Shown piece by piece: positions 52,153 through 61,107 of a DNA stretch of 64,000 nucleotides (within the stretch, counting starts at the first letter, position 1; every line of letters starts with the position of its first letter). Where the stretch lies: NCBI RefSeq assembly GCF_023556315.2, contig NZ_CP116221.1:558001-622000 (forward strand), in the 5' to 3' direction. The notes under the pieces are model-generated. The model was given only the letters and a program-made list of their open reading frames with translations. It did no database searches and was not told the origin of the DNA. This DNA is from Psychroserpens ponticola (GTDB lineage Bacteria; Bacteroidota; Bacteroidia; Flavobacteriales; Flavobacteriaceae). A program made the position numbers and the translations under genes.

Positions 52153-52869
52153 ATGCATTTTTTAACTACTTTATTACTACAAAGGGTTGCAATTGGTTCA
52201 TTAGAACATCTTATTCCAATTGGAATTGCTATTGTTTTTTCTGTTCTATTTATTAGATTTGCTAAACAATCTTCCAATCAAAATATCAAAGTAAGACTAT
52301 TTAATGGTTTAGCTGTTTTTGTGTCTTTAAGTGTTTTTAGTTTTCATCTGTATTATTTTGGCTTCGAGTCCTATAATATTAAAACAGATTTGCCTCTTTA
52401 TTTATGTAGCCTAATAGCATTATTAATACCTATATTCTCTTACAACAGAAAGTATTGGATGTTTGAAATACTTGTGTTTTGGATAATTGCAGGTACATTA
52501 CAAGGCGTTATAACTCCAGACATAGTCGAAGGTTTTCCAAGTTTTGATTATTTTAGATATTGGATTGTGCACTTAGGACTATTATCAATAATTTTTTATG
52601 CTGTTTTTGTTTTTGAAATGAAGCCTAGATTTAATAGTGTTTTTATTTCTTTTTTTGCACTTCAATTGTATGTTGTTTTTATGGTAATTATAAATTTTGT
52701 ACTCGATGCCAATTATTTTTATCTTAATCAGAAACCAGAATCTGCGTCACTTTTAGATTATTTTGGAGAATGGCCATATTACATAATAATTACTCAATTA
52801 ATAATTATTCCTTTCTTCTTTATTATTTATTTAGGGTTTAATTTTATTTGTTTCAAAAAAAAGCGTTGA
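52153..52869 (+). CDS. YwaF/TIGR02206-type integral membrane protein
   Basis: 238 residues with six or seven hydrophobic segments. It has the family pattern: LPLYLCSLIAL near 78-90, a conserved His after the fourth segment (RYWIVHLGLLS), and NYFYLNQKPESASLLDYFGEWPYY split around residues 187-210. The function of this family is unknown. It starts 22 bases after folD and may be co-transcribed. Confidence 0.82.
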   Translation: MHFLTTLLLQRVAIGSLEHLIPIGIAIVFSVLFIRFAKQSSNQNIKVRLFNGLAVFVSLSVFSFHLYYFGFESYNIKTDLPLYLCSLIALLIPIFSYNRKYWMFEILVFWIIAGTLQGVITPDIVEGFPSFDYFRYWIVHLGLLSIIFYAVFVFEMKPRFNSVFISFFALQLYVVFMVIINFVLDANYFYLNQKPESASLLDYFGEWPYYIIITQLIIIPFFFIIYLGFNFICFKKKR

Positions 52870-53166: not shown

Positions 53167-56100
53167 ATGAATGCTGTAGCTATTAATTCAATTAAAATTT
53201 GTTGCGCTTTTTTCAACAATATTTTTTTAAAACTTCAAGTCAAAAGGCAAGTATTGCTCGTTTTGACTTTTTTATTGTTTAGTCTTTTCTCAATTCAAGC
53301 TCAAACGTATTGTGAAGATATTGCAGGGAGAAATTGTGATGACTGTCCAACGATTCCTGTAAGTCCTAATCCAGATATGTTAGTGAACTGCGAAGACTCA
53401 ATTGATATTATTTTAATTATTGATGAATCTAATTCTATAGATTCTCAAACTTTAGAAAATAATGTTAGAGATGGTGTGTTAGCATTTTTAGGTGAACTTG
53501 AATGTAAACCAGTGAGAGTGGCATTGATAGAATTTGGATCAGTAGCTAATTATGTCGTTCCAACCTATAGAGCAGTTGGAACCTCGCTTACTACTGATAT
53601 TACAAATTATTTTAATGATAATGTTGGTTTTAATGGTAATACCTATACACCAGATAATTTTTCTAATAATAATTTAGGTGGTACCAATTGGCAGGCAGCT
53701 TTATTAAGAGCTAATGCGTTACCAACTGCAGATTTGTTATTAATGTTTACCGATGGAAAACCAACAGCATATTCTCCAAATGCTAATAATCCAGGATCTA
53801 GTTATGATTTTTGTGATAGTGGTAGTGACACAGAAGAGGCAGAAATATATAATGCTGCTATTGTGGCAAACTTATTAAAAGCTAAAGATACACACATGTT
53901 TGTTTTAGGTATTGGAAATGCTTCTTCTACTTATATTCCAAGTATAACAGGGACAAATGAATATAATCCATCAGATGGAGATCTAATTTCTAATTCAGAT
54001 TATGAAATTGATCCTAATTTTGCTAATCTAGCAGCTTGTTTTCGTAATATAGCTAATAATTTATGTTCTATTATAGTTGAAAGTGTAGGTTCTACTGTAT
54101 GTCAGGGAGAAACAAATGGAGTTATTGATATTACATTAACAACACTTGCTATTGGGCCTTTTACAGTAACAGTAACAAATGGGCCAACGAGTGTTAGTCC
54201 ATTTTCTACTTCTCAAACAAATTTTTCTGTATCTAATCTTGCTGCAGGAACGTATAAAGTTAAAGTAGAATCTAATGATGGATGCTATGAAGAAGGAAGT
54301 GTGTTTGTAACTATTGGAGTTGATACTCCTGATGCTACTTGTAATAATTTAGCAGATGTACTATTAGAAACTTGTACTGCAACGATTCCAACTAATTTTG
54401 ATGCTGGTGATACAGATGGCGAATTAGCTGATGTATTTTCAGATGTATTAACTTGTGGAACAGCAGGAATTAGACATGAAGATAGTAATCCAGGAGATAT
54501 TTGTAATGGAACAACTATTACTAGAACTTATTATTTAACTGATGATACAGTAGATGTTCAAGGAGTAACTTGTACAAGAGATTTTGTGTTTACAGCTCCA
54601 GCATTAGCATTAAGTGCAGCTCCAGCAGATGTTACTACATCAGCTTGTGTGAATCCAGCAGATGAGTTTGCAGCATGGATATTAGCATTAGAAAACATGA
54701 GTGCCACAGGAGGTTGTAATGCAGAGGTAGAATATTCAGAAGATCTAAATACATTATCTGTATCTGGATTCTGTAATACAACAGCACAAGTAATTACAGT
54801 AAATATAAATGCAAAGGATGATTGCGGTGAAACAACACCAGTAACAGCGACATTTACTGTTTCAGCTTATTCAAATGATTTAACATTGGTTGGCACTTGC
54901 CCAACAGCTAATGAAGTAGATGGTTGTTCAACAAATTTAGAAATATCAGCAGCATTCGATACATGGAAATCAGCAGTATTAGCAAACTTTAGTGCCACTG
55001 GAGGTTGTAATGCAGAGGTTGAGTATTCTACAGATGTATCAGCTTTACAAGCACCTACACAGTGTGGTAGTACAGATCAAATAATCTCAGTAGATATCAA
55101 TGCTAAGGACGATTGTGGAGAAACATCAATAACAACTTGTAGTTTTACAGTGAAAGCTTTTGCTTCAACATTACTTGTTACAGAGGTAACAGATGAGAGT
55201 TATAATTCATGTGATTATACAAGTCAGTCAGGATTAGATGCAGCGTTTCAAGCGTTCTTAGATAAATTTGGATATACAGGAGGTTGTGATGCTTCAGGAC
55301 AATTAGCAAGTGCTTATAGTGCACCAGACTTATGTTCAGGAGGAACAGTAAGTGTGACTTATAATGTAACAGATTTATGTGAATCTGATAATGAAACAGC
55401 AAGTTTCACGATTACACCTTCAGAAGCATTAGAAGTGAGTTGTGCAACAGCTGTTAGTTTAAGTTCTTCATCAACACAACAAGAGATAGAAGATGCTTAC
55501 GATGCATGGAAGCTAGAGTTCACTAAAACAGGAGGTTGTGAAGCAACCGATAACTTAGATACGTTCCCAAGCTTACCAAGTTTTGATTGTGGTACAGCTG
55601 TAGACCTTAGTTTTACATACACAGCAATAGATCGTTGTCATCCAAATGGCGTAAGTTGTAGTTCAACATTCTTTGTGCCTGGAATAGTAGGTTTGACAGT
55701 AACATGTCCAGATCCAGTTAATTTACCAGCATGTAGTTCTGATGCAGATATTTTAGAAGCCTACAATGCATGGAAAGCAGGCTTTGTTGTCAACGGTGGA
55801 GATAATCCAACATCAAATATTGCTTTACTTGAAGCCTTTGACACCACACAATTATTGAATTGTTATGGAGGTACATCTTTAGGCTTTAATTTTTATGCTT
55901 ATGATGCTTGTCATCCAAATGGAGTAAATTGTCGTTCAGATTTTATAATTGATTCAAGTGAAATATTAGGATTAAGTAGAAAACCAGCTGATGTAACTAC
56001 ATCAGCCTGTGTAAATCCAGCAGATGAGTTTGCAGCATGGATTTTAGCTTTAGAAAATATGACAGTATCAGGAGGTTGTAATGCTGAGGTTGAGTATTCA

Positions 56101-59100
56101 GTAGATTTAGCAACATTGTCTGTAAGTGGCTATTGTAATACAACAGCACAAGTCGTATCAGTAGATATTAATGCTAAGGATGATTGTGGAGAAACAAATC
56201 CAGTAACAGCAACGTTTACAGTTCCAGCTTACTCAAATGATTTAGCTTTAATTGGTGATTGCCCAACAGAAAATGGAGTAGATGGCTGTTCAACCAATGC
56301 AGAGATTTCAGCAGCTTTCGATACATGGAAAGCAGCAGTATTAGCTAACTTTAGTGCAACAGGAGGTTGTAATGCAGAGGTAGAATATTCTACAGATGTA
56401 TCAGCTTTACAAGCACCAACTCAATGTGGAACCGCAGACCAAATCATTTCAGTAGATATAAATGCTAAGGATGAATGTGGACAAACTTCAGTAACAACAT
56501 GTAGCTTTACAGTTAAAGCTTTTGATTCTACCTTAGAAGTGACAGATGTATCAGATGAGAGTTATGATTCATGTGATTATACAAGTCAGTCAGGAGTAGA
56601 TTCAGCATTCCAAGCATTTTTAGATAAGTTTGGTTATACAGGAGGTTGTGATGCTTCAGGACAATTGGCAAGTGCTTATAGTGCACCAGACTTATGTGTT
56701 GGAGGAACAGTAAATGTGACGTATAACGTAACCGATTTATGTGAATCTGATAATGAAACAGCAAGTTTCACGATTACACCTTCAGAAGCATTAGAAGTGA
56801 GTTGTGCAACAGCTGTTAGTTTAAGTTCTTCATCAACACAACAAGAGATAGAAGATGCTTACGATGCATGGAAGCTAGAGTTCACTAAAACAGGAGGTTG
56901 TGAAGCAACCGATAACTTAGATACGTTCCCAAGCTTACCAAGTTTTGATTGTGGTACAGCTGTAGACCTTAGTTTTACATACACAGCAATAGATCGTTGT
57001 CATCCAAATGGCGTAAGTTGTAGTTCAACATTCTTTGTGCCTGGAATAGTAGGTTTGACAGTAACATGTCCAGATCCAGTTAATTTACCAGCATGTAGTT
57101 CTGATGCAGATATTTTAGAAGCCTACAATGCATGGAAAGCAGGCTTTGTTGTCAACGGTGGAGATAATCCAACATCAAATATTGCTTTACTTGAAGCCTT
57201 TGACACCACACAATTATTGAATTGTTATGGAGGTACATCTTTAGGCTTTAATTTTTATGCTTATGATGCTTGTCATCCAAATGGAGTAAATTGTCGTTCA
57301 GATTTTATAATTGATTCAAGTGAAATATTAGGATTAAGTAGAAAACCAGCTGATGTAACTACATCAGCCTGTGTAAATCCAGCAGATGAGTTTGCAGCAT
57401 GGATTTTAGCTTTAGAAAATATGACAGTATCAGGAGGTTGTAATGCTGAGGTTGAGTATTCAGTAGATTTAGCAACATTGTCTGTAAGTGGCTATTGTAA
57501 TACAACAGCACAAGTCGTATCAGTAGATATTAATGCTAAGGATGATTGTGGAGAAACAAATCCAGTAACAGCAACGTTTACAGTTCCAGCTTACTCAAAT
57601 GATTTAGCTTTAATTGGTGATTGCCCAACAGAAAATGGAGTAGATGGCTGTTCAACCAATGCAGAGATTTCAGCAGCTTTCGATACATGGAAAGCAGCAG
57701 TATTAGCTAACTTTAGTGCAACAGGAGGTTGTAATGCAGAGGTAGAATATTCTACAGATGTATCAGCTTTACAAGCACCAACTCAATGTGGAACCGCAGA
57801 CCAAATCATTTCAGTAGATATAAATGCTAAGGATGAATGTGGACAAACTTCAGTAACAACATGTAGCTTTACAGTTAAAGCTTTTGATTCTACCTTAGAA
57901 GTGACAGATGTATCAGATGAGAGTTATGATTCATGTGATTATACAAGTCAGTCAGGAGTAGATTCAGCATTCCAAGCATTTTTAGATAAGTTTGGTTATA
58001 CAGGAGGTTGTGATGCTTCAGGACAATTGGCAAGTGCTTATAGTGCACCAGACTTATGTGTTGGAGGAACAGTAAATGTGACGTATAACGTAACCGATTT
58101 ATGTGAATCTGACAATGAAACAGCAAGTTTCACGATTACACCATCAGCAGCATTAGAGGTAAGTTGTCCATCAGCTGTTAGTTTAGATTCGTCTTCTACA
58201 GAGCAAGAGATATCAGATGCTTATGAAGCATGGAAATTAGAGTTCACTAAAACAGGAGGCTGTGAAGCAACCGATAACTTAGGAACTTTCCCAAGCTTAC
58301 CAGATTTTAATTGTGGAACAGCAGTAGATCTTAATTTTACATATAGAGCAACAGACCGTTGTCATCCAAATGGTGTGACTTGTAGTTCAACATTCTATGT
58401 TCCTGGAGTAACAGGATTAACAGTAAATTGTCCAACAGATGTAAATTTAGACTCATGTACAAGTTCAGCAGATATCTTAACGGCTTATAATTTATGGATA
58501 GCAGGATTTGGAGTCAATAATGGCGATAGTCCAACATCTAATATTGGAGATATACCAGCATTACCAGCTTATGAGTGTGGAACAGCAATAGACTTATCAT
58601 TTACATTGTCTGCAACGGATACTTGTAATCCAAATGGCGTAAGTTGTACATCAACATTTAAAGTTGAAGCAGCAGCAGACTTAACATTAGTAGGTACTTG
58701 CCCAACAGTTAATGAAGTTGATGGCTGTTCAACCAATGCAGAGATTTCATCAGCGTTTGAGATATGGAAAGCTGCAGTTTTGGCTAATTTTAGTGCCACA
58801 GGAGGTTGTAATGCAGAGGTTGAATATTCAACAGATGTATCTGCTTTACAAGCACCAACACAATGTGGAACAACAGATCAAGTAATATCAGTAGATGTAA
58901 ACGCTAGTGACGATTGTGCAAAAACAACCGCTATAACATGTAGCTTTACAGTTAAAGCTTTTGAATCAACTTTAGAGTTAGCTGAAGTAGCAGACGAGAG
59001 TTATGCGTCATGTGATTATGCAGATCAAACTGGAGTAGATGCAGCCTTCCAAACGTTTTTAGATAAGTTTGGTTATACAGGAGGATGTGATGCATCAGGA

Positions 59101-61032
59101 CAATTGGCAAGTGTTTATAGTGCTCCAGACTTATGTGCTGGAGGAACAGTAAGCGTAACGTATGATGTCACTGATTTATGTGAGAATGGTAGTGATACAG
59201 CAAGTTTCACGATTACACCTTCAGAAGTATTAGAAGTGAGTTGCCCAACAGCAGTTAATTTAGATGCCTCTTCAACACAGCAAGAAATAGAAGCTGCCTA
59301 TGCAGCATGGAAATTAGGATTCAGCATGACAGGAGGCTGTGAAGCAACTGATAATTTAGGAAGCTTCCCAAGCTTACCTAGTTATGTTTGTGACACCAGT
59401 ATTGATTTATCATTTGACTATGTTGCAACAGATCGTTGTCATCCAAATGGTGTAAGTTGTAGTTCTACTTTTAATGTTGAAGGACGTGAGTCTGTAAATG
59501 CAGGAGGAAATGGAGCGCTTACAATTTGTGAAAATGGAACAGTTACTGCTCAAGAGTTATTTGAAGCTTTAGGAGGTGATCCTGATGAAGGTGGAACATG
59601 GAGTCCAGAACCAAATGGGGCAAATATATATACTTACACGGTTCAAGGAACTGATCCTTGTCCTGATGCTATGGCAACAATAACAGTTGAAGAATTGAAT
59701 CTAGAAATTTCAGCTAGTGAACCAATATGTGATGAAGAGATTGGAACTTATACAGTAAATGTTCAAGTTTCAGAAGGAACAGTTTCAAGTACGTTAGGGA
59801 TTCCAGTTGATAATGGTGGTGGTTCTTGGACTATTATTAATATTCCAACAGATAATAATATTGTTGTAACCACAACATCAACGGTTTCTAATGATGTAGA
59901 ATGTACTAGTTATATTGAAGTGATCTCTCCAGATTGTATTTGTATAGAGTTAGAAGTAGATTATACAGATGTATCATGTTTTGGTCTTGATGATGGAACA
60001 ATAACTATAAGTTATGTAACAGAAGGAGCAATAGTAACTGTAAATGGTGATCTGTATGATGCTGACATGTTTTATGAGCCAGGAACTTATACTGTTGTGG
60101 CTTATTTTGAAGGTAATGACGATGACGATTGTATCATTTCTCAAGATGTCACAATTGTAGAACCAGTATTAGTTGATGTACAGGTGAGTTCTACGGATGC
60201 GACTTGTTTTGGAGCTGATGATGGCACGATAACTATAGAAAGTTTAAGTGAAGGTGCATTTTATACAATTAAATTAAATGGTATTGGTTCAGATCTAAGC
60301 GGACAAGATTATTTTTCTCCAGGAACTTATGTTGTAGAAGCTAAATTAATTGATAATGCATTAAATAGAAATGGTTCATTTGATAAAAAGAATGAAACTA
60401 CTAGATCTCAAAACCCATGTGTTGATGGGAAATTAGTTGTAATTGGAGAGCCAAATGAGTTGATTTGTAAAATTGGTTCACCATTAAGTGGAGATTTAGT
60501 TAAATGTCAAGAGAGTTTTGATAATACTTTATCTGTTGCTGCTTTAGGAGGAACAGGTCCCTACACTTATGAGTGGACTATAAATAAAGTAGGAAGAATA
60601 CATGGTTGGGCATTTGATTCAGCTATAGATGGTTCAACAATTAGCTATTTTACAGGTATTGAAAATGTTAGGTTTACTGTTGAAATTACAGATGCTAATG
60701 GTTGTACAACAATGTGTGATTATCAGCTATCTTCTACATGTTCGAAGTCAGATTATTACAACATGTTTGGAAGAGATAATGATTTTAATTTTGAAACATT
60801 CCCTAATCCAACTAAAGGTAAGTTAACTATCAAGACTAATAGATTAACTGATAATAATGCAATTGTAGAGCTTTATGACTTGATTGGGACTAGAATATTT
60901 AGTCAATCATTTAATAAGATTAGTGATAAGAAAATTAATATTGATCTTTCTGGTTTAGCGAGTCAAGTGTATTACTTAAAAGTAATTACCAAAGATGGAA
61001 CTAAAATCAAAAAAGTTATTCTAGATAAATAA
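53167..61032 (+). CDS. Giant (2621 aa) T9SS-secreted vWA protein with 18 Cys-rich modules
   Basis: Architecture: signal peptide (about 1-46, ending FSIQAQ); a von Willebrand A domain (about 78-300) with the metal site DESNS (86-90) plus TDG at 195-197; a SprB-like segment (about 305-390); then 18 tandem modules (about 480-2105) of roughly 91 residues, each with an IxxAFxxW-type helix, a TGGC (once NGGD) turn and 4 or more Cys. Module types run [1-2-3-4-5] three times, then [2-3-4]. After these come a GGTW segment, two CFGxDDGTI SprB-like units and a T9SS type A sorting domain (about 2545-2621: FPNPTKGKLTIK to KKVILDK). It should be a cell-surface or secreted adhesin, stiffened by disulfides and binding through vWA. 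The ligand is unknown. It stands alone with its own promoter and terminator. Confidence 0.88.
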   Translation: MNAVAINSIKICCAFFNNIFLKLQVKRQVLLVLTFLLFSLFSIQAQTYCEDIAGRNCDDCPTIPVSPNPDMLVNCEDSIDIILIIDESNSIDSQTLENNVRDGVLAFLGELECKPVRVALIEFGSVANYVVPTYRAVGTSLTTDITNYFNDNVGFNGNTYTPDNFSNNNLGGTNWQAALLRANALPTADLLLMFTDGKPTAYSPNANNPGSSYDFCDSGSDTEEAEIYNAAIVANLLKAKDTHMFVLGIGNASSTYIPSITGTNEYNPSDGDLISNSDYEIDPNFANLAACFRNIANNLCSIIVESVGSTVCQGETNGVIDITLTTLAIGPFTVTVTNGPTSVSPFSTSQTNFSVSNLAAGTYKVKVESNDGCYEEGSVFVTIGVDTPDATCNNLADVLLETCTATIPTNFDAGDTDGELADVFSDVLTCGTAGIRHEDSNPGDICNGTTITRTYYLTDDTVDVQGVTCTRDFVFTAPALALSAAPADVTTSACVNPADEFAAWILALENMSATGGCNAEVEYSEDLNTLSVSGFCNTTAQVITVNINAKDDCGETTPVTATFTVSAYSNDLTLVGTCPTANEVDGCSTNLEISAAFDTWKSAVLANFSATGGCNAEVEYSTDVSALQAPTQCGSTDQIISVDINAKDDCGETSITTCSFTVKAFASTLLVTEVTDESYNSCDYTSQSGLDAAFQAFLDKFGYTGGCDASGQLASAYSAPDLCSGGTVSVTYNVTDLCESDNETASFTITPSEALEVSCATAVSLSSSSTQQEIEDAYDAWKLEFTKTGGCEATDNLDTFPSLPSFDCGTAVDLSFTYTAIDRCHPNGVSCSSTFFVPGIVGLTVTCPDPVNLPACSSDADILEAYNAWKAGFVVNGGDNPTSNIALLEAFDTTQLLNCYGGTSLGFNFYAYDACHPNGVNCRSDFIIDSSEILGLSRKPADVTTSACVNPADEFAAWILALENMTVSGGCNAEVEYSVDLATLSVSGYCNTTAQVVSVDINAKDDCGETNPVTATFTVPAYSNDLALIGDCPTENGVDGCSTNAEISAAFDTWKAAVLANFSATGGCNAEVEYSTDVSALQAPTQCGTADQIISVDINAKDECGQTSVTTCSFTVKAFDSTLEVTDVSDESYDSCDYTSQSGVDSAFQAFLDKFGYTGGCDASGQLASAYSAPDLCVGGTVNVTYNVTDLCESDNETASFTITPSEALEVSCATAVSLSSSSTQQEIEDAYDAWKLEFTKTGGCEATDNLDTFPSLPSFDCGTAVDLSFTYTAIDRCHPNGVSCSSTFFVPGIVGLTVTCPDPVNLPACSSDADILEAYNAWKAGFVVNGGDNPTSNIALLEAFDTTQLLNCYGGTSLGFNFYAYDACHPNGVNCRSDFIIDSSEILGLSRKPADVTTSACVNPADEFAAWILALENMTVSGGCNAEVEYSVDLATLSVSGYCNTTAQVVSVDINAKDDCGETNPVTATFTVPAYSNDLALIGDCPTENGVDGCSTNAEISAAFDTWKAAVLANFSATGGCNAEVEYSTDVSALQAPTQCGTADQIISVDINAKDECGQTSVTTCSFTVKAFDSTLEVTDVSDESYDSCDYTSQSGVDSAFQAFLDKFGYTGGCDASGQLASAYSAPDLCVGGTVNVTYNVTDLCESDNETASFTITPSAALEVSCPSAVSLDSSSTEQEISDAYEAWKLEFTKTGGCEATDNLGTFPSLPDFNCGTAVDLNFTYRATDRCHPNGVTCSSTFYVPGVTGLTVNCPTDVNLDSCTSSADILTAYNLWIAGFGVNNGDSPTSNIGDIPALPAYECGTAIDLSFTLSATDTCNPNGVSCTSTFKVEAAADLTLVGTCPTVNEVDGCSTNAEISSAFEIWKAAVLANFSATGGCNAEVEYSTDVSALQAPTQCGTTDQVISVDVNASDDCAKTTAITCSFTVKAFESTLELAEVADESYASCDYADQTGVDAAFQTFLDKFGYTGGCDASGQLASVYSAPDLCAGGTVSVTYDVTDLCENGSDTASFTITPSEVLEVSCPTAVNLDASSTQQEIEAAYAAWKLGFSMTGGCEATDNLGSFPSLPSYVCDTSIDLSFDYVATDRCHPNGVSCSSTFNVEGRESVNAGGNGALTICENGTVTAQELFEALGGDPDEGGTWSPEPNGANIYTYTVQGTDPCPDAMATITVEELNLEISASEPICDEEIGTYTVNVQVSEGTVSSTLGIPVDNGGGSWTIINIPTDNNIVVTTTSTVSNDVECTSYIEVISPDCICIELEVDYTDVSCFGLDDGTITISYVTEGAIVTVNGDLYDADMFYEPGTYTVVAYFEGNDDDDCIISQDVTIVEPVLVDVQVSSTDATCFGADDGTITIESLSEGAFYTIKLNGIGSDLSGQDYFSPGTYVVEAKLIDNALNRNGSFDKKNETTRSQNPCVDGKLVVIGEPNELICKIGSPLSGDLVKCQESFDNTLSVAALGGTGPYTYEWTINKVGRIHGWAFDSAIDGSTISYFTGIENVRFTVEITDANGCTTMCDYQLSSTCSKSDYYNMFGRDNDFNFETFPNPTKGKLTIKTNRLTDNNAIVELYDLIGTRIFSQSFNKISDKKINIDLSGLASQVYYLKVITKDGTKIKKVILDK
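55372..56733 (+). repeat. 1362-bp tandem repeat, copy 1 (454 residues)
   Basis: A unit of five Cys-rich modules (residues 736-1189 of the giant protein), phased from the end of one type-3 module to the end of the next. As far as I can compare by eye it is identical to 56734-58095 at the DNA level. The same period continues upstream and downstream in diverged form. Confidence 0.88.
56734..58095 (+). repeat. 1362-bp tandem repeat, copy 2 (454 residues)
   Basis: The second copy (residues 1190-1643). Identity to copy 1 stops just after the boundary: downstream at about 58112 the sequence reads GACAAT instead of GATAAT, then diverges. This marks a recent unequal crossover or slippage event. Confidence 0.88.
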
Positions 61033-61066
61033 CCAACTAGAATAATTGATTCTTAGCAACCTTCAG

Positions 61067-61107
61067 CACCTTTAATCTGTAACAAGATTGGAGGTGTTGT
61101 TTTTTTA
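61067..61107 (+). terminator. Intrinsic terminator after the giant gene
   Basis: CACCTTTAATCT (61067-61078) pairs with AGATTGGAGGTG (61085-61096), with two G-U pairs, around GTAACA, followed by TTG and a run of T. Confidence 0.85.

Follow-up and report, generated by a model that had tools for sequence, protein, structure and literature searches.

Even cysteine counts at module junctions suggest inter-module disulfides in the HYR-like stalk of a putative adhesin of Psychroserpens ponticola

Calcium bound at the junctions, or covalent cross-links within the domains, are known to stiffen bacterial stalks of Ig-like domains. The first is found in SiiE of Salmonella, a type I secreted protein with 53 BIg domains whose rod is rigidified by interdomain type I Ca2+ sites, each formed by residues of two neighbouring domains (PMC5466336), and the second in a giant Mobiluncus adhesin with 51 Ig-like domains, in which the covalent cross-links described are intradomain and an interdomain linker is called flexible (PMC10619420). 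In this study, we have explored a gene of Psychroserpens ponticola that lies in a window of 64,000 nucleotides (the whole stretch of DNA analysed, positions 558,001 to 622,000 of contig NZ_CP116221.1) and encodes a vWA head on a stalk of 18 cysteine-rich modules, together with a sorting domain of the type IX secretion system (T9SS). In the modules of this stalk and its relatives, the cysteines are even in number per junction and often odd per module, which points to another solution, namely covalent staples between domains. Disulfides would then do in this stalk what Ca2+ sites do in SiiE.

HycP of Clostridium cellulolyticum is a clostridial protein and hence not a T9SS substrate. It also has a long stalk, of 23 HYR modules, with a terminal binding domain, but its head is a carbohydrate-binding module (CBM3) and its function is called unclear by its authors (PMC3723904). 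The Psychroserpens protein is encoded by a single reading frame, open throughout, in a single-contig genome of 4.03 Mb (99.91% complete), and comprises, in order, a signal region, the vWA domain, a small beta domain, an HYR-like domain, the 18 modules, a tail of SprB repeats and a Por_Secre_tail/TIGR04183 domain (Table 1). The matches to PF13573 (SprB) and PF18962/TIGR04183 exceed the model cut-offs and, with the match to PF00092, bear out the layout proposed by the first-pass annotation, a vWA domain before the stalk and SprB-like units and a sorting domain after it. The HYR-like domain ahead of the array gave no Pfam match over the cut-off (stretch 54313-54600 tested). The database record of the same protein, P0002, begins 29 residues downstream of the start at 53167, which is backed by the similar N-terminus of the positional homologues.

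The modules, of 87-97 residues each, span residues 479-2106 (54601-59484) in the order ABCDE ABCDE ABCDF BCD. Copies of the same type are 71-100% identical and modules of different types 16-47%, apart from module 15 (E', or type F). Its identity is 48% to E and 46-52% to D, and it makes up a type of its own that recurs in relatives. Eighteen modules and a cycle of five types had been recognised earlier, and both stand; the five-type cycle is incomplete at its end, where A and E are missing, and module 15 is of type F. The proposed TGGC turn is found as GGC in 15 of the 18 modules, the three E/E' modules carrying GGD or NGD. There are four core cysteines, C15 before a helix, C38 (that of GGC) after it, and C54 and C68 flanking a long strand. 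All four are present in the 11 window modules of types A, B and C; the four D modules lack C15 and the three E/F modules lack C38, so that these modules have odd counts. Each D or E module holds five cysteines in all, and the earlier description of paired cysteines in every module needs correction. In the whole set, 93 of 721 scored modules have three of the four core cysteines.

We defined a junction as C15 and C54 of module i together with C38 and C68 of module i+1, and scored 655 of 691 junctions (36 were skipped for gaps; the duplicates P0002 and G004 were excluded). Writing the two sides in this order, with x for a lost cysteine, 612 junctions were CC/CC, 25 xC/xC (11 proteins), 9 Cx/Cx (3 proteins), 7 xx/CC (3 proteins) and 2 xC/CC (2 proteins), whereas CC/xx was never seen (0/655). 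All four cysteines were therefore kept in 612 junctions and exactly two lost in 41. In the two apparently odd junctions the cysteine sits just upstream of a clipped local alignment, and a stricter column rule, under which 653 junctions were scored, left no odd junction. Independent loss would be expected to give about 77 odd junctions, and shuffling the module order within arrays gave 71.7 on average and never fewer than 56 (1000 shuffles). Kinship among junctions was handled by collapsing alike ones at 45%, not by a tree; 117 junctions remained, namely 107 full, 9 altered in even number and 1 clipped. Parity was obeyed by all three D-E/F junctions of the window. A post-array domain that follows a terminal D module and has only a C15-like and a C68-like cysteine was also seen in six relatives inspected by eye (P0003, P0004, P0005, P0017, P0024 and G016). 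As far as the alignments go, the unit within which cysteines are even is the junction, not the module.

The cysteines left over in xC/xC and Cx/Cx junctions sit on different modules, and these 34 junctions, including the three of the window, would need an inter-module disulfide if the leftover cysteines are mutually oxidised. Full junctions probably carry two such disulfides, because cross-junction losses outnumber within-module losses by 34 to 7 (7 against 2 classes when collapsed at 45%). In a scan for joint loss, C15(i)-C38(i+1) reached a phi of 0.88 and C54(i)-C68(i+1) 0.72, just below the correlation between C74 of neighbouring modules (0.75), which probably reflects shared module type; C6 and C74 of the same module (0.87) behave as an optional within-module pair. 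The residues that replace lost pairs (S with D in 13, G with I in 5 and S with S in 3 of the 25 xC/xC losses; L with L in 6 of the 9 Cx/Cx losses) are at least compatible with contact. Disulfides C15-C38 or C54-C68 within a module are not favoured: in the structural model these cysteines flank a helix of 12-18 residues and a strand of 10-11 residues, respectively, and no module had lost C54 together with C68 (0/783).

The seven xx/CC junctions weigh against two staples per junction and favour pairs within modules. They would fit an ordinary HYR-like stalk with disulfides inside each module, C15-C54 at one end, C38-C68 at the other, and C6-C74, in which the orphan cysteines at D-E junctions pair by local rewiring and head and function are as proposed here. 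Such a wiring also gains from the joint loss of C15 and C54 in the same module (12 modules in 8 proteins, phi 0.33) and from their loss in the terminal modules of P0007, P0009, P0011, P0013 and P0016; these terminal losses fit both wirings because the last module has no partner. It predicts CC/xx junctions about as often as xx/CC, yet the former are absent, and cross-junction losses are the commoner kind by the counts given above. We find this within-module wiring rather doubtful.

The ends of arrays give suggestive support to inter-module pairing: C38 is missing from 8 of 44 first modules and 22 of 638 inner ones, and C15 from 11 of 41 last modules and 31 of 618 inner ones. The comparison is not clean because arrays may abut other cysteine-bearing domains. 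In arrays of the HYR_4C family, 9 of 82 junctions were odd under strict columns and 1 of 88 under wider bands that were picked after the strict result had been seen, which is consistent, if weakly, with an extension of the junction rule to that family. We see about even chances that full junctions here, and perhaps throughout HYR_4C, carry two module-to-module disulfides and that the cysteine pattern at the end of a module is a key that dictates the next one. A key of this kind would explain both the ordered super-repeat and its duplication by blocks, not single modules. The disulfide-stiffened stalk of the first-pass annotation is kept in altered form, as the odd cysteine counts of single modules suggest that bonds run from one module to another. 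Junction parity itself is a test that needs only sequence and is usable on any repeat array. No paper combining inter-domain disulfides and Ig-like terms came up in a literature search; as its scope left out preprints and most journals under subscription, this does not prove the staple unpublished.

The order of the modules recurs in relatives. Hidden Markov models (HMMs) of the window types were used to score seven close proteins (window included): B-C-D runs occur in all seven and B-C-D-F in six, and four arrays terminate in BCD. The array of P0003 (Psychroserpens sp.) reads AAAAB CDF BCDF BCDF BCD and that of P0004 (Winogradskyella sp.) BABB CDF BCDF BCDF BCD (one D being a weak call), while those of P0005, P0008 and P0024 are less regular. 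Given this recurrence, the basic cycle is probably B-C-D-F, and the five-type unit of the window is probably a local variant that includes A and in which F has diverged to E.

At the DNA level, units 2 and 3 of the super-repeat contain a stretch of 1379 bases that recurs without a mismatch 1362 bases further on (within 55372-58112), which reflects either a recent duplication of a five-module block or a question of assembly. TRF, whose longest period is 500, reported no repeat. If the duplication were an assembly artefact, the true number of modules would not be 18, and it is the exact identity over more than one unit that invites this explanation. We consider it very unlikely: the genome is the near-complete single contig described above, repeated B-C-D-F blocks are also present in P0003 and P0004, and unit 1 is only 91-93% identical to unit 2 (depending on register), so that the super-repeat is real regardless. 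Chance or artefact as the origin of the modules themselves is ruled out by the identity among same-type copies and by the exact repeat.

The module resembles described families, although the window copies tested are not matched by their models. HYR (PF02494) shares its CP start and its end (T.V.YTATD.CG...CSFTV), but the window module has a helical insertion and extra cysteines. HYR_4C (PF23237) has four core cysteines in seemingly corresponding positions, judged by inspection, and likewise forms tandem arrays in Bacteroidota T9SS proteins; it differs from the window modules, which carry a helix of 12-18 residues between the first two core cysteines. Seven window modules tested singly matched no Pfam model even at E 10, HYR_4C included (0/7), and 3 of 32 family-wide modules matched HYR_4C at E <= 0.1 (best E 0.015). 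We compared a family profile of 136 diverse modules by hhalign with profiles of HYR and HYR_4C; these were our own, made from regions to which Pfam matches had pointed, and not the models of Pfam itself. The score was 39.5 (probability 94, 73 columns aligned) against HYR and 34.4 (probability 92) against HYR_4C; seven unrelated domains, whose profiles hold 1-19 sequences (three of them a single one), scored at most 15.8, and reversed or permuted columns at most 14.9. Because the scores exceed these controls, we place the module, on profile evidence, in the HYR-like group as a helix-bearing branch. The first-pass annotation had allowed for such an affiliation, which the profiles now support through both families, with no direct Pfam match for the seven modules. 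Its suggestion of an undescribed adhesin class does not hold, since the branch is present in all 41 proteins listed by our stalk search and a vWA domain in only 7 of 44 module-bearing proteins examined. An orphan fold is likewise ruled out by the profile comparison.

An AlphaFold2 model of three modules (m16B-m17C-m18D) has a confident fold (mean pLDDT 95.3), with the helix inserted between the first two core cysteines, and its best Foldseek matches are tandem Ig-like or cadherin ectodomains. Sequence searches of the PDB and of NCBIfam returned nothing convincing for the module, and a viral-model search matched only generic Ig-like and other long proteins. A literature search that excluded preprints and most subscription journals found no paper on HYR-like domains in T9SS adhesins or Flavobacteria.

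Among the 41 listed proteins (one being the window's own) the window-module HMM made 722 matches, counting the window protein and its duplicate record. Where named, the source organisms are Bacteroidota (Flavobacteriaceae, Saprospiraceae, Bacteroidales and others), and Psychroserpens jangbogonensis also encodes a module of the window type. With at most 19 candidates scored per genome, modules were found in at least 10 of 296 genomes and at least 9 of 140 genera of a phylum sample; the distribution is patchy. Among the 23 genomes of the genus, 11 show some match and 3 show a strong array. The module and HYR_4C kinds co-occur in single proteins and in the own genome. Two short proteins there (G000:C1:1740053-1740763 and 2922645-2923124) have adjacent module-profile and HYR_4C matches and are a possible link between the two families. 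Elsewhere (G000:C1:2194000-2213500), two adjacent giant frames of 3042 and about 2700 codons with near-identical starts and HYR_4C-like repeats are likely tandem paralogues.

In the head, the DxSxS, T and D residues that we take to form a metal-ion-dependent adhesion site (MIDAS) are invariant across 8 aligned heads (window included), even though these are just 28-82% identical to the window head; the site is intact, as had been read earlier. A model of the head, of modest confidence, gave Foldseek matches to vWA structures, among them two pilus proteins (SpaC and PilB) and Mfa5, a protein of the fimbrial tip. We know of no HYR-like stalk in Mfa5. This protein of Porphyromonas gingivalis (structure 6to1) is also a Bacteroidota surface protein with a vWA domain, but belongs to a fimbrial tip (PMC7835359). 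The window head would bind a ligand through the MIDAS metal. Head and stalk are not tied to each other: the 7 of 44 tally counts one gene twice (G004 and P0017), modules are absent from 6 of 13 vWA-headed proteins, and P0043 (Psychroserpens luteus) has a head 82% identical to that of the window, no module match and a distant sorting domain (27%). The absence of vWA from 37 of the 44 proteins could also mean that the protein is not an adhesin but a structural component of the surface or matrix, or that it carries some different activity, with the vWA domain serving assembly. HycP, with its unclear function, would fit such a role, and a table fragment taken as its column lists no role in adherence (PMC3723904). 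Since the MIDAS residues are conserved in such divergent heads and the Foldseek matches include SpaC, PilB and Mfa5, we regard this as unlikely.

The sorting domain (TIGR04183/PF18962) and a PorU sortase in the genome (1379 bits) mark the protein as a predicted T9SS type A cargo, and no CHU_C/type B sorting model was among its domain matches. According to published work, type A substrates are handed to PorV and either released or linked to lipopolysaccharide (LPS), whereas SprB of Flavobacterium johnsoniae, also a T9SS surface protein and the namesake of the Pfam repeats, is a type B substrate that remains on its own carrier SprF and travels on the gliding track (PMC12635249, PMC9143113). The flavobacterial names of the relatives, the SprB-like repeats and the long stalk might suggest a gliding adhesin on such a moving track, a role raised by the first-pass annotation. 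We find this barely credible, because the signal is of type A and none of the 8 PorP/SprF genes (PF11751) of the genome is near the locus, the nearest being about 380 kb away. The other part of that proposal, a T9SS-secreted adhesin-like protein with a MIDAS-bearing vWA head on a long cysteine-rich stalk, agrees with the matched type A domain, vWA domain and 18 modules. Elsewhere in the genome (G000:C1:1356500-1373500), a frame of 4686 codons with 31 HYR_4C-profile matches adjoins a PorP/SprF-family gene (G000:C1:1356786-1357601), and its product may be a type B cargo whose dedicated carrier is encoded next to it.

Overall, we think it likely that the gene encodes a type A T9SS surface adhesin with a vWA head on an 18-module rod, stapled by inter-module disulfides and ordered by cysteine compatibility. 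The protein would be exported by Sec and then by the T9SS, its disulfides having presumably formed in the periplasm. The SprB-like units and the sorting domain would lie at the cell end, where PorU would link the protein to LPS unless it is released, and the helix-bearing HYR-like modules would keep the metal-binding head away from the cell. At about 4 nm per module, a typical domain size, the rod would measure roughly 70 nm. Along it, C15 and C54 of each module would face C38 and C68 of the next, with C15-C38' and C54-C68' as the preferred wiring. A module lacking only C15 (type D) would precede one lacking C38, and under this compatibility rule, which would constrain the order, duplication or exchange would naturally proceed by blocks of several modules. 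If true, the stalk is one unbroken rod held by covalent staples, the ordered super-repeat is explained, and direct predictions for disulfide mapping follow.

The locus itself is a slot whose content varies within the genus. Upstream of the gene lies what we presume to be a ywaF-like gene (52153-52869), which was found in 21 of the 23 genomes of the genus, the own genome being one of them. The region downstream of it was compared in 19 of the 20 other genomes (G011, with a partial match only, was excluded): six have a large same-strand frame of this kind, as the window does, and in the remaining 13 the next frame is on the opposite strand. The N-terminal region of all six homologues is similar to that of the window protein (for G016, in its first frame), and the three that are not truncated at the edge of a contig (G004, G014 and G016) have SprB-like units and a sorting domain, the SprB match of G016 being below the cut-off. 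Their heads are a vWA domain, a P-domain plus vWA, or another head. Stalks of the window module have 18 copies in the own genome, 6 in G004 (with added PKD-like domains) and 5 in G016; other stalks consist of PKD-like domains (G006, G009), a 27-residue repeat with two cysteines (G014) or HYR_4C (G012). These differences in one slot, and the P0043 head without modules, indicate by comparison that heads and stalks are exchangeable and that the ends are fixed, a mode of surface-protein change that the same-slot comparison brings out.

Table 1. Features of the gene and its surroundings (positions within the window)
Feature	Position	Strand	Evidence
Adhesin-like gene, 2621 residues	53167..61032	+	Open frame; start backed by positional homologues
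N-terminal signal region, residues 1-46	53167..53304	+	Similar in positional homologues; putative cleavage site
vWA domain, residues 80-265	53404..53961	+	PF00092, E 1.8e-5; Foldseek matches to vWA structures
Presumed MIDAS DxSxS, residues 86-90 (DESNS)	53422..53436	+	Invariant in 8 aligned heads
Presumed MIDAS partner residues T173 and D196	53683..53685; 53752..53754	+	Invariant in 8 aligned heads
Small domain between vWA and first HYR-like domain, residues 311-390	54097..54336	+	Homologous piece in P0043-P0047; strands in head model
HYR-like domain ahead of array, residues 391-478	54337..54600	+	Sequence inspection
Modules m01A-m05E, first super-repeat	54601..55959	+	
Modules m06A-m10E, second super-repeat	55960..57321	+	
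Modules m11A-m15F, third super-repeat; m15 of divergent fifth type	57322..58674	+	
Modules m16B-m17C-m18D, last three	58675..59484	+	Predicted structure, mean pLDDT 95.3
First copy of 1379-base exact duplication (spacing 1362)	55372..56750	+	
Second copy of 1379-base exact duplication	56734..58112	+	
D-E junction m04/m05: D C15 and E C38 both lost, C54 and C68 kept	55423..55959	+	
Junctions patterned like m04/m05: m09/m10; m14/m15	56785..57321; 58147..58674	+	
Post-array domain, residues about 2107-2180; only C15-like and C68-like cysteines, matches D-type end	59485..59706	+	Sequence inspection
Best of 3 SprB repeat stretches, residues 2341-2372	60187..60282	+	PF13573, E 9.9e-10
T9SS type A C-terminal sorting domain, residues 2545-2618	60799..61020	+	PF18962, E 2.6e-15; TIGR04183 over cut-off
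Terminator-like hairpin, 15 pairs then T run	61064..61099	+	

Two of the slot homologues have features of their own. That of G014 (L066 1821-6737) contains about twenty of its 27-residue repeats (CYETATFNTQTCEW...), which no Pfam match at E <= 0.01 covers, and that of G016 (L070 1883-6181) is split into two open frames of 154 and 1237 codons. Terminator-like hairpins, one of which follows the gene, were found at 7 sites in the region against 3.8 expected.
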